Below, in pieces: positions 20,475 through 38,561 of a DNA stretch of 64,000 nt; the first letter of the stretch is position 1, and each line of letters begins with the position of its first letter. Position numbers and translations under genes: made by a program. Below the pieces are notes generated by a model. It made no database searches, was not told where the DNA came from, and worked only from the letters and a program-made list of their open reading frames with translations. The stretch is from assembly GCF_000686945.1 (NCBI RefSeq), contig NZ_JMME01000005.1, positions 124,001-188,000 on the forward strand, read 5' to 3'. The DNA comes from Selenomonas sp. AE3005. Its GTDB lineage: Bacteria > Bacillota > Negativicutes > Selenomonadales > Selenomonadaceae.

Positions 20475-21084
20475 AAATTGCAGTTTGTTGTTTAGTTCGT
20501 GCTAAAAATTATCCCGTTAATACGTGCAAGGGGTTCACGGGGGAGTAATTTTTCTGCCTCCGCTAAACGACACACCTCGGAAAATATAGCTGTCCAGTTA
20601 CCTGCGCCGGGCGGGCCAACGGCGCTCCTTTCAGCGTAGTTGCTTAGCTGCGTACTACAGTGTGCCGGCCTTCGCTGCGCTCAGGCAGTCGCTCCCCGCA
20701 TAAAAATCACTCCCCCGTTCGCCCCCACAAACGACCTGTGCAATTGCCACGAACTCGTTGCTCCCGTAACAAGAACATCGATGTACTTGTTCCCTGTCAC
20801 AGCGAAATAATCATTTTACACGGACGCCGCTTAGGGCGGAGGTGGTGATGCTTTTCGCAGTGGAACGACTGTCCGAACGCAGTGAGGACTGGCCCACAAA
20901 CAATAGTCCCTGGATATTGAGATGAACAATCGCGCCGCTGGCCTGCCCGGCGCAAGGTAGCTAAAAAGTGCTGTCGTTTGCTAGTGGGACATTCAGTGCA
21001 ACAGCGAAAAGTATTACCACCTCCACCCGACTGAGCTGTAACAAAAAAATTTCAGAACGCATTGACCTACAACCTGCATTTTAA
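20475..21084. repeat. Large palindromic intergenic element, copy 1 (long form)
   Basis: About 610 bp that fills the gap between the hydrolase gene and rpsF. It matches 34699-35104 and 49172-49778 in the same orientation. The left ~200 bp recurs as a diverged inverted copy in the right ~200 bp (for example 20834-20858 against the complement of 21004-21028), around a central hairpin at 20768-20791 with core ACATCGATGT. The left end is AAATTGCAGTTTG; the right end is diverged in this copy. Short ORFs inside it (e.g. 20660-20848) are conserved only because the DNA repeats. Confidence 0.9.
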
Positions 21085-26269: not shown

Positions 26270-29200
26270 GTGGCAATGTATTTTATCAGACATCCTCTGC
26301 AGGCCGTGGTGCTGGCGATATTACTCACCTTGTTGGGAGTAGTGGCGGCATTTCAGCTGCCGGTGGCTGAATATCCCCGTATCATGCCGCCGATGGTGTC
26401 GGTATCAGCAACGTATCATGGGGCTGACGCCGCAGTGGTGCAGGATACGGTGGCCAATATCATTGAGGCGGAAATCCGTGGGATGGAAGGTCTGCGCACC
26501 ATGTCGTCCAATTCTGATGCCGCCGGGAATTATTCCTTGAATATCGAATTTGCCCCGGGGATTGACGGTGAGGTGGCAACGGCCAGTGTGCAAAATAGGA
26601 TTGCGACGGCTCTGCCCAATTTGCCACAGTCCGTGCAAAACTTTGGTGTGACTACCAGCCGGTCCATGCCGGGGATGGTGTTTGCTATGTCGCTATGCTC
26701 GCCCAAGGGTTCATACGACAGCATTTTTTTGCAGAACTATGCCAAAAAATATTTTTTGGATAAGGTGAAACGTGTTCCCGGTGTCGGCAATGTCGAAGAA
26801 TACACAGAAGACTATGCTATGCGTATTTGGCTGCAGCCGGACAAACTGGCTGCAAAAAAAATGGCTGTGTCTGATGTGCTGGCGGCCGTACAGGAGCAGA
26901 ATGCCCAGCCGGCTGCCGGAGCGCTGGGGAAAATGCCGACCAGCCGGCAGCAGGAGCAGCAGCTGACGGGCCGGATAACGAACCGCCGTCATACACCGGA
27001 GGATTTTGGCAATATTGTTTTAAATGCTGACAAAGGTAATTTTGTCAGACTTAAAGATGTGGCCAAAGTGGAGGAAGGCCGCCGGGATACCCGTTATGTA
27101 TCCTATCAGGATGGTCTGGAGGCCGCGACTTACAGTATTTCCCTGACCGATAGTGCCAACGCTCTGGAAACCATCGGTGAGGTGAAAAAAATTCTGGCAG
27201 AGGCGCAGAAATTCTTCCCTCCCGACATGGAATATCGCATTGTCGTTGACCAGACCAGCTTTATCAAAAAATCCATGGAGGAAGTGGCTTATACCTTTGG
27301 GGAGGCCCTGCTGCTGGTGGTCCTCATTGTGTATCTTTTCCTGGGCAGCGCCAGGGCTACCCTCATAACTTTGCTGGCGGTGCCGGTTTCTTTGATAGCT
27401 ACCTTTTTTGTCTTTTACCTATGTGACTACTCACTTAATCTGCTGACCTTGTTTGCCCTGATTTTGGCTATTGGCCTGGTAGTGGACGACGCCATTGTCA
27501 TCATTGAAAGTGTGTTCCGGCATACGGAAAAAGGACTGCCCGTAAAAGAGGCGGCCGCAGCAGCGATGCAGGAAGTGCAGGCGCCGATTTTAGCGATAGC
27601 TTTTGTCCTGGCGGCGGTTTTTGTGCCGGTGGCGTTTTTATCCGGCATGACAGGTGTGCTTTACCGTCAGTTTGCCCTGACACTTGTGGCGTCCATGAGC
27701 ATTTCGGCCTTTACGGCTTTGACGTTGACGCCAGCTTTATGCGTGCTGCTGCTCAAAGGACAGGAGCATAAAACAGAATCTAACAGGCTGTTGTTATGCT
27801 TTGCCCGGCTGCTGGGCTGGCTGGGGCGTAAATATCAGCAGTGTCTGGGAAACTGCCTGCGGCGCGGACGGCTGACATTGGCAGTCCTGGCGCTGCTGAC
27901 CGCAGGTACGGCCGCGTTGTATATGGTTATGCCGCAGGAATTTCTGCCGGAGGAGGACCAGGGCTATGTGATGGCCAGTATTTCCTTGCCAGCTGGCAGT
28001 TCCCTGAACCGTACCACTGAATCGATGAACCGCCTGTCGGAAAAAATAAAAAGCCATGCGGCTGTAAGGGGCGTCATTGGTATCGGCGGTGTGGATTTGC
28101 TGGCGGACAACACCTGTTCTAATGCCGCGGTGCTTTTTGTGGCCCTGAATGACTGGTCAGAACGGCTGGCGGCCGGACAAAGCCTGGATGATTTGCTTGC
28201 CTGGGTGGACGCGGAGGCCAAGCAGGTTGTTCCCGAGGCGGCCGTGATGGCTATGAATCCCCCGGCCTTGCCGGAACTGGGAATGACGGGCGGCGCGTCC
28301 CTGCATTTACAGGACGTAGCCGGTCATTCTGAAGAAGAATTGCAGGCGGTAGTTGGAAAAATTATGGCCAAGGCCACGGAACACCCGGCGATAGATACCA
28401 TTGAGGTTAATTTTGACATTGGCTCGCCCTATGCAGATTTTACGGTTGACGAAGATAAAGCCAAGCTGCTGGGGGTTAGCCTGACTGATGTGTACAGCGC
28501 CATGCAGGTGAATTTCGGCGGTGAGGAATTAAATGATTTTACCCGGTTCGGGAAGGTTTACAAGGTCGTATTGCAGGCCGATACTGCTTACCGTGATGAA
28601 ATGAGTGCCCTGCGTTTCCTGCATGTCCGCAACAATGAGGGTACCATGGTACCGCTGGACGCGCTGGTGCATACGCAAAATTCATCGGGACCTGCTGCTA
28701 TAAGCCGTTATGATGGTGTGCGCAGTATCCATTTTGACCTGACACCCGGCGAAGGTTATGCTGCCAGCGAGGCGATGTCGGCTATGGAAGATATTGTCAG
28801 GGAGGCTGCTCCCAATGGCTTTAGTATGGCCTGGGCAGGCGTCAGCCGGCAGGCCCGTGAGGCTGAGACTGATGCGGCAGTGCTGCTGGGGTTGTCACTG
28901 GTGTTTGTATTCCTGTGCCTGACCTTTATTTATGAATCCTGGCGGCTGCCCTGGGCCGTGCTCTTTTCCGTGCCTGTGGGGATTGGCGGCGCCTTGCTGG
29001 CGGAAATGGCTGCCGGCCAGCCTGGCAGCTTGTATATGCAGATAGGTATACTGCTCGTCGTGGCCCTGGCGGCCAAAAATGCCATTTTGATTGTGGAGTT
29101 TGCCCGGGAAAGGCAGCTACGGGGTATATCGTCAGTCCGGGCAGCCCTGACAGCAGCCCGTCTGCGCCTGCGTCCGATACTTATGACGTCGGTGGCCTTC

Positions 29201-29377
29201 ATTGCCGGCTGTCTGCCCTTGGCTTTGGCTGAGGGGGCAGGTTCCGGGGCACGCAGCAGCATGGGAATCGCCGTAGTGGGCGGTATGCTGCTGGCCACTG
29301 TACTGGGCGTTTTGGTGGTGCCCGTGCTCTATGTGGCCGTGGCTAAACGTAAAACAAACGTCAATGAGGGGAGATAA
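26270..29377 (+). CDS. RND efflux permease (HAE1-like), without adaptor gene
   Basis: A 1035-residue RND transporter with the usual 12 membrane segments in two halves and two large periplasmic loops. The proton-relay residues are present (GLVVDDAIVII in TM4; AAKNAILIVEFA in TM10). Family order is typical (start RHPLQAVVLAILLTLLGVVAAFQLPVAEYP). GTG 26270 or ATG 26276 are possible starts. Substrate pumps of this class need a membrane-fusion protein and an outer-membrane channel, but neither is nearby. It is flanked by csoR and two polytopic genes. The Asp pair argues for the HAE1 drug family rather than the HME metal family; the substrate is unknown. Confidence 0.9.
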   Translation: MAMYFIRHPLQAVVLAILLTLLGVVAAFQLPVAEYPRIMPPMVSVSATYHGADAAVVQDTVANIIEAEIRGMEGLRTMSSNSDAAGNYSLNIEFAPGIDGEVATASVQNRIATALPNLPQSVQNFGVTTSRSMPGMVFAMSLCSPKGSYDSIFLQNYAKKYFLDKVKRVPGVGNVEEYTEDYAMRIWLQPDKLAAKKMAVSDVLAAVQEQNAQPAAGALGKMPTSRQQEQQLTGRITNRRHTPEDFGNIVLNADKGNFVRLKDVAKVEEGRRDTRYVSYQDGLEAATYSISLTDSANALETIGEVKKILAEAQKFFPPDMEYRIVVDQTSFIKKSMEEVAYTFGEALLLVVLIVYLFLGSARATLITLLAVPVSLIATFFVFYLCDYSLNLLTLFALILAIGLVVDDAIVIIESVFRHTEKGLPVKEAAAAAMQEVQAPILAIAFVLAAVFVPVAFLSGMTGVLYRQFALTLVASMSISAFTALTLTPALCVLLLKGQEHKTESNRLLLCFARLLGWLGRKYQQCLGNCLRRGRLTLAVLALLTAGTAALYMVMPQEFLPEEDQGYVMASISLPAGSSLNRTTESMNRLSEKIKSHAAVRGVIGIGGVDLLADNTCSNAAVLFVALNDWSERLAAGQSLDDLLAWVDAEAKQVVPEAAVMAMNPPALPELGMTGGASLHLQDVAGHSEEELQAVVGKIMAKATEHPAIDTIEVNFDIGSPYADFTVDEDKAKLLGVSLTDVYSAMQVNFGGEELNDFTRFGKVYKVVLQADTAYRDEMSALRFLHVRNNEGTMVPLDALVHTQNSSGPAAISRYDGVRSIHFDLTPGEGYAASEAMSAMEDIVREAAPNGFSMAWAGVSRQAREAETDAAVLLGLSLVFVFLCLTFIYESWRLPWAVLFSVPVGIGGALLAEMAAGQPGSLYMQIGILLVVALAAKNAILIVEFARERQLRGISSVRAALTAARLRLRPILMTSVAFIAGCLPLALAEGAGSGARSSMGIAVVGGMLLATVLGVLVVPVLYVAVAKRKTNVNEGR

Positions 29378-29382
29378 ATGGA

Positions 29383-30894
29383 ATGAATTTGTGGGCTGAC
29401 AGGCTGTACGGCCTGTGGCAGGCTCTATGGCAGCGCTTGAGCTGGCAGTTGTTATTCGGTTTGGCTGCGGGGGTATTCCTCTGGCGTAATATCCTGATGC
29501 CGCTCGTGGGAGATGATTATTCCTATGCTTTTATCTGGGATGGGGCAAATGCCGGTAATCTCATGGATGATATAGGGCCGCGGCAGCGAATTACTTCGCT
29601 AAGTGATATCGTTGTCTCGCAATGGTCGCATTATTTTACCTGGGGCGGACGGGTGCCGGCATTGTTTGCGGTGCAGTTTTTCTGTTGGCAGCATAGCCTC
29701 TTATTTGACTTGTTTAATACGGTGTTCTTTGTGCTGCTGGTGTTAGTGCTTTACTGGCTGGCAGCCGGCCGGACAGAGCATGTGCGCACTAATAAAACCG
29801 CATTGTGGTGGCTGCTTTTGGGCTTGTTTTTTGCTGTTCCCTCATATATCTACACCATGGTATGGCGGACGGGAGCTTGTGTCTATCTTTGGACAGCAGT
29901 GGTGACATGTATTTTTTTGCTGCCCTTTGCGCTGACTTACTGGCAGGATGATTTGCCGCTTGATAAGTCCGCCGGGGCGGTGCCGCTGATGCTGTTCGTG
30001 GGCCTTTTGGCCGGGTGGTCAATGGAACCTGCCAGTATTGTTACCTTGCTGTTGACGGCGGCCTTTATGGTCATATTTTATCAGCAGAAAAAACTGCGGA
30101 GCTGGCAGTGGGCGGGCCTGACCGGTCTGGTTATTGGCTTGCTCCTGCTGATGCTGGCACCCGGCAATATGGAGCGGTTAAAGCTCATGCAGGAGCTGGC
30201 GCCTGATTATACCATGCCGCCGGAACTTTTATGGACACCGGTAATGTTCCTGTATAATTTTGTGTCCGGCTTTTTGCCGGTATTTATCGGAGAACTGCCG
30301 CTGTTTGTGCCGATTGTGCTCTGTCTGCGGTATGGGCTGTGCAGCAGGCAGGAGAAACGCTACATGCTGCTGTTTACGGCAGGCAGCGTTCTGGTTCTGT
30401 GTGCGATGATGTTTTCCCCGGATTTTCGTGCGCATGGTGCTTATCATAGTGTGATTTTCCTGTTGGCAGCCTCAACAGCTGCCCTGCGTGCACTCATGCC
30501 GCTGCTGGCAGAAAAATGTATGCAGGTGCCGAAAATTCGGCTGGGCGCAGCGGTGCTGGGATTCACGGCGTTGGGCGCGTGGCTGGTGGCAATGGCCCTG
30601 TGCCTGACGATAGAAACATCGTACAGCCAGCAGTGGGCCGAACGGGAAAAGATTATCAGTGAACACCGGCAGGATGACCCTGTGGTGGTGCCCGCGATTG
30701 AAATCCCCTGGCATTTGGACAAAATCACCGGCAATCGTTCCCTGACAGAAAGTCTGTTGATATTTGGCGCTGATTTGGAAAGCAACCCCAGGGACAATCG
30801 TTCCAATGTTTATGCGCAATATCATGGGCTGAAGGGGATTGTCATTGATAAACAAATTGACTGGGGAAAATATGGGGAGACATTTGAATGGTAA
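29383..30894 (+). CDS. Polytopic membrane protein, DUF6056/GT-C-like, copy A
   Basis: A 503-residue protein with about ten hydrophobic segments and a signature just after the first one (LVGDDYSYAFIWDG...GPRQRITSLSDIVVSQWSHYFTWGGR). Paired acidic residues in the first external loop followed by WxGR resemble GT-C glycosyltransferase-like families such as DUF6056; activity is not proven. It is a clear paralogue of the next gene: the same motif order and the ending NVYAQYHGLKGIV/LMYAQYYGWKKVM. It begins 5 bp after the RND gene and overlaps its paralogue by 7 bases. Confidence 0.72.
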   Translation: MNLWADRLYGLWQALWQRLSWQLLFGLAAGVFLWRNILMPLVGDDYSYAFIWDGANAGNLMDDIGPRQRITSLSDIVVSQWSHYFTWGGRVPALFAVQFFCWQHSLLFDLFNTVFFVLLVLVLYWLAAGRTEHVRTNKTALWWLLLGLFFAVPSYIYTMVWRTGACVYLWTAVVTCIFLLPFALTYWQDDLPLDKSAGAVPLMLFVGLLAGWSMEPASIVTLLLTAAFMVIFYQQKKLRSWQWAGLTGLVIGLLLLMLAPGNMERLKLMQELAPDYTMPPELLWTPVMFLYNFVSGFLPVFIGELPLFVPIVLCLRYGLCSRQEKRYMLLFTAGSVLVLCAMMFSPDFRAHGAYHSVIFLLAASTAALRALMPLLAEKCMQVPKIRLGAAVLGFTALGAWLVAMALCLTIETSYSQQWAEREKIISEHRQDDPVVVPAIEIPWHLDKITGNRSLTESLLIFGADLESNPRDNRSNVYAQYHGLKGIVIDKQIDWGKYGETFEW

Positions 30895-32345
30895 AAAAAT
30901 TACAATCATGGCCAATGATTTTACTGGTGTTTTTGGGCTTGTTTTTTGTGCGTAACAGTATGCTGCCCCTTGTATCTGATGATATACCCTATGCCTTTAT
31001 TTGGGATGGGGCCGACAGGGGCAACCTTTTGGACGGTGTAGGGCCGCGGCAGCGCATTACATCATTTTATGATATTGTAATCAGCCAGTGGTCACATTAT
31101 ATGACCTGGGGCGGACGGATTTTAGGTATCGGCCTTACGCAGTTCTTCGCCTGGCAGGGCAAGGAAATCTTTAATGTGCTGAACACGCTCGTATTCGGCG
31201 GACTGCTGTTGCTGTTGTTCCGCATTGGTACAGGTTTGTCCATGAAAGCGATGAATAGTACGTATATGCTCTGGCTGGTGCTGGCTTTTTGGTTTCTCCT
31301 GCCGGACCCTTTCCTGACGACACTGTGGATGTGCGGCAGCTGTGTTTTTCTCTGGATGGGCCTGCTGGAATTCCTGTTCCTGCTGCCTTTTGCCTTAAAG
31401 TACTGGCACGCTGATTTCTGGGAAAAGCCCCCGCAGTGGACAGTTCCTTTGATGGCTGTAAGCGGTCTGTGTGCTGGCTGGTCGGTGGAAACCGGCGCGG
31501 CGGCAGCCGGTTTTATAACGTTGTTTGCCCTGTGGTACTTCAAACGGCAAAAACAGCTGCAGCCCTGGATGGTGGCCGGCTTTATCTGCTTGTGCATTGG
31601 CGGAATCATGCTCGTGAAGGCCCCGGGGGAAATGGTGCGGCTGGAATTGCAGCGTCTGTATGAATATAATCCCGGCCTGCCGGCAGATATGTACTGGACA
31701 CCGCTCATGTTTAAGATAAATTTCGTGGAATGTTTCTGGCCGGTGACGAAAATGTGGCTGCCACTATTGGCCTTGCTGGGCATTTATGTCTGGCAGCTGC
31801 CGGCAGGACAGCGTTGGAACAAATTCACCAGATTTCAGGCGGTCATGGTGGGCGGCGCTTTGAGCGTGATGATTGTTATGCTTTTTGTGCCGGTAGCTCC
31901 AGCCCGGGCAGGCTTTTTCTCCACCGCAGCGGTGATAGCTGCGTCAGTGACGTCATTAAAGGAACTGCTGCCCCGTAAGGATGAATTCTATCAGCGGTAT
32001 AAGACTGCCTGCCGGGCGGCACTTTCTGCCTGCCTGGCCTTGTGGCTGGTTACGGCCGCGCTTTACTGTACGGTGGAATGGGATGTACGCCAGCAATGGC
32101 TGGGCCGTATTGATTATATCAATGCGCATAGAGAGCAGGATTTGGTCGTGGTGCATCAGATAGACGTAATGCCCATGGCTGACGAGCTTTGCGAGTACCT
32201 CGGCTGCGTGACCTGGAATACGGATATTCTGGCCTGGGGTTCGGATTTGGAACCGCGTCCCGAGGGCAGTCATAATCTAATGTACGCGCAGTATTACGGC
32301 TGGAAAAAAGTCATGACTGATGGTGAGGACCGCCGCGTAGAATAA
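30888..32345 (+). CDS. Polytopic membrane protein, DUF6056/GT-C-like, copy B
   Basis: A 485-residue tandem paralogue of the preceding gene, with the same first-loop motif (LVSDDIPYAFIWDGADRGNLLDGVGPRQRITSFYDIVISQWSHYMTWGGR), about ten membrane segments and a soluble C-terminal tail. Moderate identity over the full length indicates an old duplication. Overlap with copy A implies cotranslation. Possible role: transfer of a sugar or other group to an envelope polymer (inference from fold resemblance only). Confidence 0.72.
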   Translation: MVKKLQSWPMILLVFLGLFFVRNSMLPLVSDDIPYAFIWDGADRGNLLDGVGPRQRITSFYDIVISQWSHYMTWGGRILGIGLTQFFAWQGKEIFNVLNTLVFGGLLLLLFRIGTGLSMKAMNSTYMLWLVLAFWFLLPDPFLTTLWMCGSCVFLWMGLLEFLFLLPFALKYWHADFWEKPPQWTVPLMAVSGLCAGWSVETGAAAAGFITLFALWYFKRQKQLQPWMVAGFICLCIGGIMLVKAPGEMVRLELQRLYEYNPGLPADMYWTPLMFKINFVECFWPVTKMWLPLLALLGIYVWQLPAGQRWNKFTRFQAVMVGGALSVMIVMLFVPVAPARAGFFSTAAVIAASVTSLKELLPRKDEFYQRYKTACRAALSACLALWLVTAALYCTVEWDVRQQWLGRIDYINAHREQDLVVVHQIDVMPMADELCEYLGCVTWNTDILAWGSDLEPRPEGSHNLMYAQYYGWKKVMTDGEDRRVE

Positions 32346-32440: not shown

Positions 32441-32806
32441 ATGGATCAGCTGGAAATAAAGCAAGTTCTCTGTGATGTTGGTGTTGACTACAATAAGGGA
32501 TTGGAACGGTTCATGGGCAATGTTGCCCTGTATCACAAATTCCTCCTGAAATTCCTGGATGATGGCTCGTATGCAGACTTTGCTCAGGCCTTTGCTGATG
32601 GTGATATGGAAAAAGCTGGGAAATGCGTCCATACACTGAAGGGGACGGCAGGAAATCTTAGTCTGATGAGTCTGTTCAAGGCGGCCGACAATACAGTGAA
32701 GGCAATTAAGCAGCATAAGAGTCGTGCGGAGATTGAACCTTTGGCGCAGGAGGTGCAGCGCCTTTATGAGGAAAACTGCACAGCTATTCGCAATACGGTT
32801 GGCTGA
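32441..32806 (+). CDS. Solo HPt phosphotransfer protein
   Basis: A 121-residue four-helix HPt domain with phospho-accepting H64 in CVHTLKGTAGNLSL, the expected helix pattern, and no other domain. It would shuttle phosphate between a hybrid kinase and a response regulator, but no two-component partners are in the window. AAAGGATG lies upstream of the ATG. It stands alone, about 95 bp after the paralogue pair and 172 bp before leuA. Confidence 0.85.
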   Translation: MDQLEIKQVLCDVGVDYNKGLERFMGNVALYHKFLLKFLDDGSYADFAQAFADGDMEKAGKCVHTLKGTAGNLSLMSLFKAADNTVKAIKQHKSRAEIEPLAQEVQRLYEENCTAIRNTVG

Positions 32807-34648: not shown

Positions 34649-34698
34649 AATTAAAGTTCAAAAATCCGATGGCTACATTGTCATCGGATTTTTGTTGT

Positions 34699-35104
34699 AA
34701 ATTGCAGTTTGACGGTCAATACGTTCTTAAAAATATCTCGTTCATGCGAGCCTGGGGTTCACGGGAGAGTAATTTTTCTGCCTCCGCTGAACGACACACC
34801 TCGGGAAATAATCTTGTCCAGTTACCTGCGCCGGGCAGGCCAACGGCGCTCCTTTCAACGTAGTTGCTTAGCGATTGACTACAGTGTGCCGGCCTTCGCT
34901 GCGCTCAGGCAGTCGCTCCCCGCATAAAAATCACTCCCCCGTTCGCCCCCAGCTACGGTATTTACAATTGCTACGAACCCGTTGCTCCCGTTACAAGAAC
35001 ATCGATGTGCTTGTTCCCTGTCACAGCGAAAAGTATTACCACCTCCACACCACTGAGCTGTAACAAATAAAAATAAGCACGCACCAAACGTCAAACTGCA
35101 ATTT
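34699..35104. repeat. Large palindromic intergenic element, copy 2 (short form)
   Basis: About 405 bp. The ends are a perfect 16-bp inverted repeat (AAATTGCAGTTTGACG at 34699-34714, complement at 35089-35104). It matches the left and far-right parts of the other two copies but lacks about 200 bp. The junction lies in ACAGCGAAA at about 35024-35032; in copy 1 the same 9 bases occur at both edges of the extra segment (20799-20807 and 21001-21009). The remaining 145 bp before the next gene are AT-rich with a promoter. Confidence 0.92.
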
Positions 35105-35190
35105 ATCTGCATTTAAAATGATTGTGTTTTATATAAATGTTCAACAAAATGAATTTAAACGGGAATAAAACAGTTGGAAAAATGACTAAT

Positions 35191-35220
35191 TTGTAATATA
35201 GTAAGATGTATGCCTATATA
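35191..35220 (+). promoter_or_regulatory. Promoter of the STAS-condensation/MATE-ATPase unit
   Basis: TTGTAA, 18 bases, TATATA (with TATAAT overlapping at 35217-35222), in an AT-rich stretch 30 bases before the start codon. The region 35105-35250 shows nothing else. Confidence 0.55.
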
Positions 35221-35250: not shown

Positions 35251-36843
35251 ATGAGTCTTGAAATAATAAAGAAAATAAATGGTAAGCAATTATTTGTGAC
35301 GTTGTCGGGGAGCTTGGATGCTCTGACGGTGGATGATTTTGACCGGGAATTTATGGAGCTGCCGGAAGAGGTAGAGTCAGCCGAACTTGATTTTTCCGAT
35401 GTTGAATATATTTCCTCGGCTGGGCTGCGTTCGCTGCTGCTGGCTAAAAAACAGGCTGTTAAGCAGGATAAAAAGCTCGTGATTAAGGACCCGCAGCAGT
35501 CCCTGGTGGAAGTTTTTAAAGTTACCGGCTTTGTAAATCTGCTGGAAATAGTATACAGTAACCAGACGGAAAGCGATGTGTCTGCCCCGGCTGACGGTTT
35601 TTATCCTTTGCGCCCTGTGCAGCGCTGGCTGGTGGATACGCATTTCCGCAAGGCGGATTCTACAATGATGAATAATGGTGCCCTGATGAAACTGGATGAG
35701 GCCATTGACCTGGAACGTCTGGCTGTGGCACTTAATGACTTGCTGACAGCTTATGATATTTTCCGCTGCCGGCTGTGCTTCCATCCCGATACGGGGGAGA
35801 TTTGCCAGCGTTTTGATGGTGATGTGCCTAAGGTACGGGTGGAAATACTTTCGGAGCAGGCTTTTGAACAGCGCAAACAGGAACTGAAAATGCCCTATAC
35901 GCTTATCAATAGTCCTCTCTATCGTATTTATCTCATGCTGACGCCATCGGGAAAATATATTTACGCGGATTTCTATCATGCCATTATGGATGGACTGGCC
36001 ATTGTGGTGTTGTTCTGGCGTGAATTGAATAAACGCTATCAGGGCAAAAATGTCAGCCGCAAACGGGCCAGCTATGCTGAGTACGTGTGGGAGGAGGCCA
36101 AGGAACTGGCCGCCGGGCAGGAGGAGGCTCATCGCTACTGGCAGAATGTGCTGGCCGGCTTTGACGTGCAAAAGCACCTGCCGCCTGTGGACCAACAGCA
36201 GCATGATAACTGGCAGCAGGGCTGTGTACAGTGTCAGCTCGGCAATATTCATAAGGACTTCTTCACCAACAAGCAAGCCTATAGCGAAAATACCTTTATG
36301 CTGGCGGCGTCCATGCTGGCGATGGCTAAGGTGACAGGTGAGAAGGATGTTATTATGAGCTGGGTGCATAATGCCCGGACGACAGTTCAGGAAATGCGTA
36401 TTATGGGACTGATGCTTAATCAATATCCTATCAGATGGGATTTTAGTCAGGATATGCAGGTTGGTCAGTTCCTGACCGGACTGGAAGAACGTATCAACGA
36501 AGGTATATCCTATGGCAAAGGTCTGGATGAAGTTTATAGGGACGACCTCGAAGGGGAATGTGCCAGCTTTATCCTGCAGAAGGATACGGATATCAATGCG
36601 GCGTACTCCCTGGACGGGACGACCAGTCAGATTGTGGAAATGCCGGCCAACAAGCGGTCAGCGGCGGAGAATGTTTTGGATATAGTTGTATCTGTGCTGC
36701 ATGATGGCAACTATCAGCTGACACTGGCCTTTGATGGCAGCCGTTATACCGATGAATCTATGGAACGCTATGCCGCGCTCATCGATGAAATGGTGCTGGC
36801 CTTGCAGGCTGAAGACCGCAGCATAGCGGAGATTTTGGCGTGA
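35251..36843 (+). CDS. STAS domain fused to an NRPS-type condensation domain
   Basis: A 530-residue two-domain protein. Residues 1-105 form a STAS domain of the anti-sigma-antagonist type; in LDFSDVEYISSAGLRSLLLAKK, S56 aligns with the Ser phosphorylated in SpoIIAA/RsbV. Residues from about 113 form a full condensation/acyltransferase-like domain: YPLRPVQRWLVDTHF, the catalytic motif H243-AIM-D247-G248 (the first His of HHxxxDG is Tyr), and the later MSWVHNARTTVQEMRIMGLMLNQYPIRWDF segment. No adenylation or carrier domain is attached or nearby. The stop overlaps the GTG start of the MATE-ATPase gene (GTGA), so the two are coupled. Likely an acyl- or aminoacyl-transferring enzyme controlled or localised by STAS (inference). 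Confidence 0.82.
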   Translation: MSLEIIKKINGKQLFVTLSGSLDALTVDDFDREFMELPEEVESAELDFSDVEYISSAGLRSLLLAKKQAVKQDKKLVIKDPQQSLVEVFKVTGFVNLLEIVYSNQTESDVSAPADGFYPLRPVQRWLVDTHFRKADSTMMNNGALMKLDEAIDLERLAVALNDLLTAYDIFRCRLCFHPDTGEICQRFDGDVPKVRVEILSEQAFEQRKQELKMPYTLINSPLYRIYLMLTPSGKYIYADFYHAIMDGLAIVVLFWRELNKRYQGKNVSRKRASYAEYVWEEAKELAAGQEEAHRYWQNVLAGFDVQKHLPPVDQQQHDNWQQGCVQCQLGNIHKDFFTNKQAYSENTFMLAASMLAMAKVTGEKDVIMSWVHNARTTVQEMRIMGLMLNQYPIRWDFSQDMQVGQFLTGLEERINEGISYGKGLDEVYRDDLEGECASFILQKDTDINAAYSLDGTTSQIVEMPANKRSAAENVLDIVVSVLHDGNYQLTLAFDGSRYTDESMERYAALIDEMVLALQAEDRSIAEILA

Positions 36844-38561
36844 GCAGCTGGCTTTTGCCGGGGAAGAGGACAGTGATATCCACCAGATTCTGGCTGGTGT
36901 TTAAAGCCGCGATGTTTTCCATGATGAGTGCCTATCTGCTGATACTGACGGACAATGTAGCGGCCGGCCAGCTGGTCGGGGAAGGGGCCGTTATGGGGAT
37001 AACCCTCGTGTTTCCCCTGGTCACCTTCATCATCTTCATGAGCTATATAATAGCTGATGGCCTGGTGATGAAACTGTCCTATGCGCAGGGGCGCGGTGAC
37101 CGCCGGCAGGTAGACCGGCTGTTCAGCATGGGGGTAATGCTGGCGCTGGTCACAGGATTTTTATTTACCATTGGTATGTACTGTTTCCGTGACGAGCTCC
37201 TGTCCTTTTGGCGTATTTCACCACAGTTGCTCGATTTCGCCGGCGCTTATTACGATGGCCTTTATCTTTACGCGCCGTTTATGTTTCTGAATGTCTTTTT
37301 TTACACGGTGTTTGTGGCAGAAGGGCAGGAACAGGTTTGTGTAATCGGCGCTGTCTGCACCTTTGTGGTCAATTTTGTGCTGGATATTGTTCTCTGCCTG
37401 CAAATCGGCGTTATGGGCGTAGGCATTGCCAGCACCAGCGGCCTGGCAGCGTCGGTGGTGGTGCAGCTTTACTACCTGCGCGGCGGCCGCAGCCGGGTAC
37501 ATTTTTGTTGGTATCTGAACGTCAAAGAGGTTTTGTGGGGAATCTGGTACAGCTGCTATCATTCCATGGATACGCTGCTGCTGGCCCTGCTCCCCGTGGC
37601 TTTGTCCTCCTGTGTGCTGTCGCATTTTGGGGAGGCGCATATCATTGTGGTCACGGTGGTGGTGAACCTGTTGACGCTTATTGTGGCGCTCTATACGGGC
37701 GTGGTGGACTGCTTGCAGCCCATGGTTTGCCAGTATTATGCCGAGCAAAACCTGCATAGTATTCAAAAGACCATGGATATCGGCATAAAAATGACGGTGT
37801 TTATCAGCCTGCTGGTAACTGTCCTGGGCATGGCCCTGGCCGAAGTTCTGCCGCTGCTGTTCGGTGTCAGGGAGCAGGTCATGGTACAGGAAACTGCGGC
37901 CGCTATACGTTGTTTCCTGCTGTTTACGGCCTTTTTGGGCACGACGCTCATGTACAGTAACTACTACATCTATATAGAAAAACGTAATTATGGTGCCTTG
38001 GTGAAACTCATGCTGCTGCTGGGGCTGCCTTATATCGGTATGCAATGCGGTGCAGCCCATTCGTTAAATGGCATGTGGCTGGGGACGGGCGGCGCGTTTT
38101 TAGCGGCTTGGGGACTGAATTACCTGCTGGCAGGCCGCAGCGGCTGGCTGTTTTTGGACAAGGAACAGCTCGCTCGGCAGTATTCTTATGATATTGATTC
38201 TGTTAAGGAAGAGGTTATGGAGATTTCCAGGCAGGTGGCGGAAGTGCTGGCGGCGAGAAATATCCCATCCTCGCGGTGCATGCTGCTGTCCCTGTGTGTG
38301 GAAGAAATTGGTCTGCATGCGGCAGAACGGGCAGCAGGGCAAAACTTCCAGCTGGAAATATCCCTGCTTTTAGACCGTAATCCCAACGGTAAAATAACCC
38401 TGCTGGTCCGCGACAACGGCCAGCCTTATGATATACTCAAAACAGCGCAGTCAGGCAGCTATTCCTTTAGAGAGTACTTTATCGAGTCTGTGACAGCAAA
38501 CCTGCCCTACCGCCGCTATCTGGCCAGCGGTGATGAAAACCGGCTGACGTTAGTGATTTAG
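36840..38561 (+). CDS. MATE-family transporter fused to a degenerate RsbW-like HATPase domain
   Basis: A 573-residue fusion. Residues 1-440 are a MATE-type flippase with about twelve hydrophobic segments (start KAAMFSMMSAYLLILTDNVAAGQLVGEGAVMGITLVFPLV). Residues from about 453 are a GHKL/HATPase domain of the anti-sigma kinase type: LCVEEIGLHAAERA as N box and RDNGQPYDI as G1 (D525-N-G-Q-P-Y-D531). The N-box Asn that binds Mg is replaced: ExxxN reads E489-I-G-L-H493, and the ATP lid is poorly conserved, so kinase activity is doubtful. It may serve to bind the STAS domain of the partner protein. Export of the partner's product is the obvious hypothesis. Confidence 0.82.
   Translation: MSSWLLPGKRTVISTRFWLVFKAAMFSMMSAYLLILTDNVAAGQLVGEGAVMGITLVFPLVTFIIFMSYIIADGLVMKLSYAQGRGDRRQVDRLFSMGVMLALVTGFLFTIGMYCFRDELLSFWRISPQLLDFAGAYYDGLYLYAPFMFLNVFFYTVFVAEGQEQVCVIGAVCTFVVNFVLDIVLCLQIGVMGVGIASTSGLAASVVVQLYYLRGGRSRVHFCWYLNVKEVLWGIWYSCYHSMDTLLLALLPVALSSCVLSHFGEAHIIVVTVVVNLLTLIVALYTGVVDCLQPMVCQYYAEQNLHSIQKTMDIGIKMTVFISLLVTVLGMALAEVLPLLFGVREQVMVQETAAAIRCFLLFTAFLGTTLMYSNYYIYIEKRNYGALVKLMLLLGLPYIGMQCGAAHSLNGMWLGTGGAFLAAWGLNYLLAGRSGWLFLDKEQLARQYSYDIDSVKEEVMEISRQVAEVLAARNIPSSRCMLLSLCVEEIGLHAAERAAGQNFQLEISLLLDRNPNGKITLLVRDNGQPYDILKTAQSGSYSFREYFIESVTANLPYRRYLASGDENRLTLVI

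Follow-up and report, generated by a model that had tools for sequence, protein, structure and literature searches.

A STAS-condensation enzyme paired with a MATE transporter that carries a degenerate RsbW-like domain in Selenomonas

Introduction

Most known partner switches serve to free sigma factors, and only a few act on enzymes, SiaD among them. In the SiaABCD system of Pseudomonas aeruginosa, a diguanylate cyclase takes the place of the sigma factor as the target of a PP2C phosphatase, a GHKL kinase and a partner that resembles anti-sigma antagonists (PMC7647112, PMC8457831). A review of STAS domains also names all4160 of Anabaena as a STAS-glycosyltransferase (PMC8256260). Here we describe a pair of genes from Selenomonas sp. 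AE3005 that lies within a stretch of 64,000 nucleotides (contig NZ_JMME01000005.1, positions 124,001 to 188,000), termed the window. The first gene encodes a STAS domain fused to a complete condensation domain of the kind found in nonribosomal peptide synthetases (NRPSs), and the second encodes a MATE transporter whose C-terminus has the fold of the anti-sigma kinase RsbW. Together, the two proteins may constitute a partner switch that operates without a sigma factor.

Results

The pair occupies the following positions in the window:

35251..36843, + strand: STAS-condensation fusion gene, 530 amino acids (STAS 1-103, linker about 104-115, condensation 116-530), assigned with Pfam and NCBIfam profiles, AlphaFold2 and Foldseek
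36840..38561, + strand: gene for a MATE transporter with a C-terminal RsbW-like (GHKL) domain, a probable pseudokinase; 573 amino acids (MATE about 1-438, HATPase about 445-573)
36840..36843, + strand: GTGA overlap (4 bp) of the two genes

The STAS domain of the first protein (P0001) matches STAS_2 in Pfam (E = 1.3e-12, residues 16-94), and the protein lies barely above the NCBIfam cut-off for anti-sigma antagonists (TIGR00377, 54.9 bits versus 53.45). Residues 116-518 match the Pfam family Condensation (PF00668) with an E of 5.9e-43 over profile positions 3-433 of 456. This is the sole family found for the region, with no Pfam match to PapA or wax-ester synthases. The AlphaFold model of P0001 has a predicted local distance difference test score (pLDDT) of 86, and its best Foldseek matches are condensation domains of NRPSs (E = 2e-23). 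Sequence profile and fold agree in this way on residues 113-530, which a preliminary description of the window had called condensation-like. The same description had correctly placed both open reading frames and their overlap, and had named S56 as a candidate phospho-serine in a STAS domain fused to a complete condensation domain. S56 lines up with S56 of RsbV and S58 of SpoIIAA through a D/S-S-x-G motif, and the active-site motif DFYHAIMDG is intact (H243-x3-D247-G248).

Both features are kept in all 30 distinct STAS-condensation proteins that we collected, each of which has the phospho-acceptor Ser and the sequence DFYHxxxDG. The H, D and G of the HHxxxDG motif are invariant in these 30 proteins and in 31 condensation-only homologues, with the first His replaced by Tyr, or by Phe in one homologue. 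On a tree of condensation domains, the 30 STAS-condensation sequences form one group (one change, support 65/84), which fits a single fusion event. Condensation-only enzymes adjoin this group, and condensation domains of NRPSs are separate from it. In one member (L042, 7992-9587), the STAS domain shows a synonymous divergence (dS) about three times that of its own condensation part when compared with L039, L040, L041 and L057, a hint that the domain has undergone recombination or allelic replacement.

The second protein (P0002) matches MatE (E = 6.6e-24) in two stretches that correspond to the two MatE repeats, and is also above the Pfam cut-off for MurJ. Its C-terminus matches HATPase_c_2 with an E of 3.3e-4, which is under the Pfam cut-off, and a profile search of PDB sequences with this region returned RsbW (6m36) as a single, weak match (E = 0.058). 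A model of the C-terminal 144 residues was built with AlphaFold from an alignment of 11 sequences (pLDDT 85). The 18 best Foldseek matches to this model in the PDB are all RsbW, SpoIIAB or UsfX (E = 8.6e-7 to 7.7e-5), which rules out that the weak HATPase call is noise. Other GHKL proteins rank after these anti-sigma kinases, and SiaB is among the structural matches.

Loci with such enzymes fall into three classes. Class A, to which the window belongs, combines the overlapping STAS-condensation and MATE-HATPase genes with an AcrB-type pump of the resistance-nodulation-division (RND) superfamily and two DUF6056 genes. Class B, for example ATCC 12561 (L105/L089), comprises a Cache-HAMP-SpoIIE phosphatase (match E about 1e-47), which is directly upstream in most of these loci, often a solo STAS protein, the STAS-condensation enzyme, an NRPS of about 1210 amino acids with adenylation, thiolation and condensation domains (A-T-C), and a MATE-HATPase from another MATE subfamily. 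The two subfamilies that partner STAS-condensation proteins are about 20% identical, and each has a HATPase-type C-terminus. Among class B loci that have no NRPS, L099 and L100 retain SpoIIE, L048 retains the solo STAS, and L044 retains neither. Class C lacks STAS; its condensation enzyme frequently occurs as tandem copies and is frequently preceded by a class A-like MATE-HATPase. Tandems of two to three condensation-only enzymes are also seen in rumen Selenomonadaceae (L060:2197-7964, which also has a MATE-HATPase, and L064:6655-9236), and look like a local expansion of the enzyme family.

The preliminary description had remarked that no adenylation or carrier domains are close. This is true for the window, with its class A locus, but not for most class B loci, where the A-T-C NRPS lies within the operon. 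In four near-complete genomes, the STAS-condensation protein is the sole intact condensation protein; two of these (G002 and G012) are class A, and two (G027 and G040) have SpoIIE, STAS-condensation and MATE genes with no NRPS at the locus. The donor used in these organisms therefore does not come from an NRPS that bears a condensation domain, and the four genomes rule out an NRPS as an obligatory partner of class A.

Of 101 related genomes, ten carry class A STAS-condensation genes; exactly these ten carry class A MATE-HATPase genes, and the two are adjacent each time. Full flanks are available for 27 of the 30 distinct STAS-condensation proteins, and a MATE gene (540-645 amino acids) lies downstream on the same strand in all 27. 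In two others the MATE gene is cut by the end of the contig or locus, and L058 ends inside the NRPS gene. The 4-bp overlap is present in every class A locus with full flanks. The hosts are Selenomonas, Schwartzia, Succiniclasticum/Acidaminococcaceae and rumen Selenomonadaceae, along with two oddly binned contigs from metagenome-assembled genomes (Lachnospiraceae L082 and Fretibacterium L051). A phylum-wide search that looked beyond the family found no STAS-condensation protein in 395 of 399 genomes, and the four positives are all from the same family. The anatomy and conservation of the pair are solid, and the double fusion first noted in the window is conserved as a pair in other genomes. For close class A pairs, the ratio of nonsynonymous to synonymous substitution (dN/dS) is 0.05-0.27 in all four domains. 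This reflects purifying selection, and thus neither the STAS domain nor the putative pseudokinase domain is decaying.

The C-terminal domain of P0002 had been described as degenerate, and this holds in a motif alignment with the two free kinases of the same genome, with B. subtilis RsbW and with SpoIIAB. P0002 retains the N-box Glu and the DNG of the G1 box; the N-box Asn has become His, and the G2/ATP-lid box is gone. The N-box Asn is lost in 19 of 20 aligned MATE proteins, with His near-invariant at this position in class A and C relatives, and the lid box is lost in classes A and C. Judged by these motifs, the domain is probably a pseudokinase or receiver and not a kinase, such that any kinase acting on the STAS domain must work in trans.

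Candidates for such a role are encoded elsewhere in the window's own genome (G000), which has several SpoIIE phosphatases and two free RsbW-like kinases with all boxes intact (VVEEIFVN, a G1 box of DEG or DKG, and GGxGIFLVKK). The kinase of contig C1 has 147 amino acids and that of contig C8 has 136. Above the TIGR02937 cut-off, the genome has one sigma factor of RpoD size, FliA, SigH and three of the size of extracytoplasmic function sigma factors. None of those found is of the SigB, SigF or SigG type, which speaks against a sigma-factor output of the switch. The switch parts therefore probably have targets that are not sigma factors of the SigB/F type.

Several loci of this genome carry related domains. 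On contig C1 (L096:10106-16027; also L106), a gene for a condensation-like protein that lacks HHxxxDG and ends in a cyclic nucleotide-binding domain is followed by a free kinase, a solo STAS protein and a Na/alanine symporter fused to a substrate-binding protein domain. A condensation protein of about 620 amino acids, the size of the one on contig C1, is present in nearly all class A and B genomes searched. On contig C8 (L124:10602-15976), genes for a third type of MATE-HATPase, SpoIIE and an intact RsbW-like kinase follow one another. In relatives (L151, L152, L153 and L154), this third type is followed by a GNAT-like gene of 342 amino acids and SpoIIE; the GNAT gene seems absent or broken in G000, where the gap holds only an open reading frame of 79 amino acids. 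Two SDF dicarboxylate symporters have an N-terminal HATPase-like domain (contig C2, L125:7697-9394, where the call comes from a purpose-built profile and not from Pfam; contig C3, L128:8193-9821), and one of the two genes is directly 3' of a SpoIIE gene. Contig C5 (L097:7385-16136 and L098:7618-12086) encodes two NRPSs with a terminal condensation domain, each directly followed by a MATE transporter without HATPase. A terminal condensation domain together with a MATE transporter is a wider pairing in this genome.

Additional features of the window accompany the pair:

26270..29377, + strand: AcrB-type RND transporter, conserved neighbor of class A units (PF00873, 1027.8 bits; synteny)
29383..30894, + strand: DUF6056 integral membrane protein, first of tandem (PF19528, 7.1e-104; synteny; distribution)
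30888..32345, + strand: DUF6056 integral membrane protein, second of tandem (PF19528, 3e-108; synteny; distribution)
35174..35202, + strand: possible sigma-70-type promoter of the pair, TTGGAA-17-TATAGT (weak, consensus match only)

The two DUF6056 proteins and the RND pump are part of the same unit as the pair. The preliminary description had the pair right but took the unit to be two genes, missing these three genes (26270-32345) as well as the paralogous loci with SpoIIE and NRPS. The neighbors are syntenic in L040-L043, L103 and L104. In L043 and L104 the order is RND, DUF6056, DUF6056, STAS-condensation and MATE-HATPase, with a 22-bp gap ahead of the STAS-condensation gene; the same five genes are contiguous in Z108, and also, in changed order, in another genus (L103). 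In a sample of 61 genomes, every one of the eight class A genomes whose assembly is adequate has the DUF6056 tandem, as does one other genome (G024); G006 (68% complete) has a single DUF6056 gene only.

In the window, genes for Hpt and leuA separate the DUF6056 tandem from the STAS-condensation gene. The 3' end of leuA has a hairpin and T-run at about 34666-34695 (read by eye), and the pair may thus have its own promoter. The small Hpt phosphotransfer protein (32441-32806) is kept in L040-L042 and is absent between these genes in L043 and L104. About 400 bp between leuA and the STAS-condensation gene (34700-35103) are flanked by perfect 15-bp inverted repeats (AATTGCAGTTTGACG), with near-matches at 20476, 49173 and 49764 (5 matches versus 0.16 expected); this segment is possibly a MITE-like element (miniature inverted-repeat transposable element). 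The tandem DUF6056 proteins (29383-32345) share an invariant DD...W...GGR motif and resemble GT-C glycosyltransferases by eye only. A profile search of solved structures gave no structural relative for DUF6056, and hence no known glycosyltransferase fold; the link is a guess.

Discussion

The most economical reading of the pair is a sigma-free partner switch, because the phospho-acceptor Ser is invariant, most paralogous loci encode SpoIIE, and the RsbW fold persists despite the lost kinase boxes. Also in its favor are the fold and motif evidence for all four domains, the conserved pairing with MATE partners of two subfamilies, purifying selection, the free kinases and SpoIIE proteins in a genome that shows no SigB/F/G-type sigma factor, and the HATPase domains on other transporters of this genome. 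We consider the chances evenly balanced that docking of the condensation enzyme on the putative pseudokinase domain of the exporter depends on whether the STAS domain is phosphorylated. Such a switch would probably tie synthesis of the product to its export. In this scheme, S56 would be phosphorylated by free RsbW-type kinases, such as those of the contig C1 and C8 loci. The phosphate would be removed upon an outside signal by membrane-bound Cache-HAMP-SpoIIE phosphatases, acting in trans in this genome and encoded in the same operon in paralogous loci. The dephosphorylated STAS domain might then dock on the pseudokinase domain as RsbV does on RsbW, bringing the condensation enzyme to the pump's mouth on the cytoplasmic side, opening the pump, or both, such that an acylated or aminoacylated product would be made and exported only when the signal is received. 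In class A, the product would probably belong to a (glyco)lipid or amide that is exported or displayed on the cell surface, with the DUF6056 pair and the RND pump taking part in its handling; in class B, it would be a short nonribosomal product. The link to partner switching drawn in the preliminary description is strengthened by the phosphatases of the paralogous loci, but the HATPase of the exporter is itself probably no kinase, and the step that it proposed, in which the enzyme would be held on the exporter or export would be gated, is still an inference.

Several observations weigh against this switch. A related clade has the condensation enzyme beside a MATE-HATPase without STAS, so STAS docking is dispensable there. 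No SpoIIE phosphatase or free kinase gene is found near class A loci or in the window's contig region, and the regulators must be assumed to act in trans. In favor of the switch, STAS and HATPase distances track each other more closely than the remainder of the proteins would account for, but this signal of co-evolution is weak and suggestive only: the partial correlation is 0.33 (p = 0.02) in class A and 0.27 (p = 0.017) in class B, both uncorrected for phylogeny and from small samples. Values for STAS and MATE are near zero (0.09 and 0.06 in classes A and B), and those for the condensation and MATE domains are positive (0.54 and 0.49). However, the residual correlation between the condensation and HATPase domains in class A is as strong (0.51).

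A broader proposal is tentative, and we lean somewhat away from it: Negativicutes may possess a class of “transporter partner switches” that work without a sigma factor, in which RsbW-type pseudokinase domains on MATE and SDF transporters serve as phospho-regulated docking sites. STAS-tagged biosynthetic enzymes would plug into these sites, and a Cache-SpoIIE sensor would assemble a synthesis-plus-export complex without a transcriptional step.

Among the alternatives, the one that survives best, possible though rather unlikely, is that a glycolipid pathway of the cell surface, comprising the DUF6056 pair, the RND pump and a flippase-like MATE, uses the condensation enzyme as an acyltransferase. 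The STAS and HATPase domains would then only tune a system for envelope modification, as opposed to a natural-product exporter. Consistent with this are the class A synteny across several species, the near-exclusive occurrence of the DUF6056 tandem in class A genomes, the four genomes with no other intact condensation protein, and the match of the MATE protein to MurJ. Conversely, DUF6056 has neither a known function nor a structural relative by profile search, and class B units place the same enzyme with an NRPS. It is tempting, though unproven, to give the enzyme a PapA-like role in which it would act on a surface lipid alongside the DUF6056 pair and the RND pump. This explanation overlaps with the partner switch, and both could hold for class A.

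It is unlikely that the STAS and HATPase-like domains are constitutive docking or oligomerization modules without a phospho-switch, for instance with STAS recruiting a carrier protein or acyl donor, or bolting the enzyme to the pump. The widespread loss of the N-box Asn and lid box, and the lack of phosphatase and free kinase genes in the window's contig region, would fit such an arrangement. There are also parallels, in that STAS domains of SLC26/SulP transporters function without a phospho-switch, and that of E. coli YchM reportedly binds acyl carrier protein. Against it stand the phospho-acceptor Ser, kept without exception, and the SpoIIE genes directly upstream in most class B loci, which are hard to explain without STAS phosphorylation.

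Classical RsbW-RsbV logic, in which the MATE-borne HATPase would be an active kinase that phosphorylates the STAS-condensation protein and thereby frees it from the exporter, seems improbable to us. The N-box Glu and G1 box (DNG/DxG) are retained, the His of class A might still bind metal, and L103 of class A retains Asn. The HATPase domains of class B are at or near the Pfam cut-off and, although without the N-box Asn, have better scores than that of P0002 (up to 3.8e-7), and some retain a G2-like GIGLHMVK. Nonetheless, the missing Asn is a Mg ligand and the missing lid is that of the ATP site, and free kinases of the same genome retain every box. Finally, it is scarcely credible that a drug pump merely happens to lie beside a stray NRPS domain, with STAS and HATPase calls arising from weak homology. 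The sub-threshold HATPase score would favor this reading, but the structural match to RsbW/SpoIIAB, purifying selection, exact co-occurrence and the order kept in every full-flank locus contradict it.

If the partner switch is real, an enzyme and its likely exporter each contain one of its halves, providing a direct post-translational link between small-molecule synthesis and efflux. The pair also offers a testable route to a product of Selenomonas and Succiniclasticum relatives from the rumen, and RsbW-like domains might turn out to be regulators of secondary transporters in general. Class A units would probably escape genome mining that considers only NRPS modules.

We found no description in the open-licence literature of STAS, condensation and MATE in combination, of partner switching with a nonribosomal peptide, or of HATPase-transporter fusions, and the double fusion is apparently undescribed so far. 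Its closest counterparts each share some features. Like SiaABCD, the unit would have an enzyme rather than a sigma factor as the output of a partner switch, but SiaABCD consists of four separate proteins and joins neither the partner to the enzyme nor a kinase domain to a transporter. The RsbV/RsbW/RsbU and SpoIIAA/SpoIIAB/SpoIIE systems of Bacillus have in common with it a phospho-Ser STAS domain, the RsbW fold and a SpoIIE-type phosphatase (here in paralogous loci). Their target is a sigma factor, whereas a condensation enzyme and a transporter take its place here, and the exporter-borne RsbW domain is degenerate. The N-terminal STAS domain of all4160 is likewise fused to a biosynthetic enzyme, albeit of another class, and the description given in the review includes no transporter partner. 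As a stand-alone condensation domain, P0001 resembles VibH (structure 1l5a), a free-standing NRPS condensation enzyme. PapA enzymes operate beside an RND-superfamily transporter in PapA/MmpL pairs. Unlike P0001, neither VibH nor these pairs have a regulatory STAS domain, and in Pfam P0001 falls outside the PapA and wax-ester synthase families. In SLC26/SulP proteins, too, a secondary transporter bears a domain of the partner-switch type; in these it is a C-terminal STAS domain, whereas in the Selenomonas pair the transporter carries the kinase-like half and the enzyme carries STAS.

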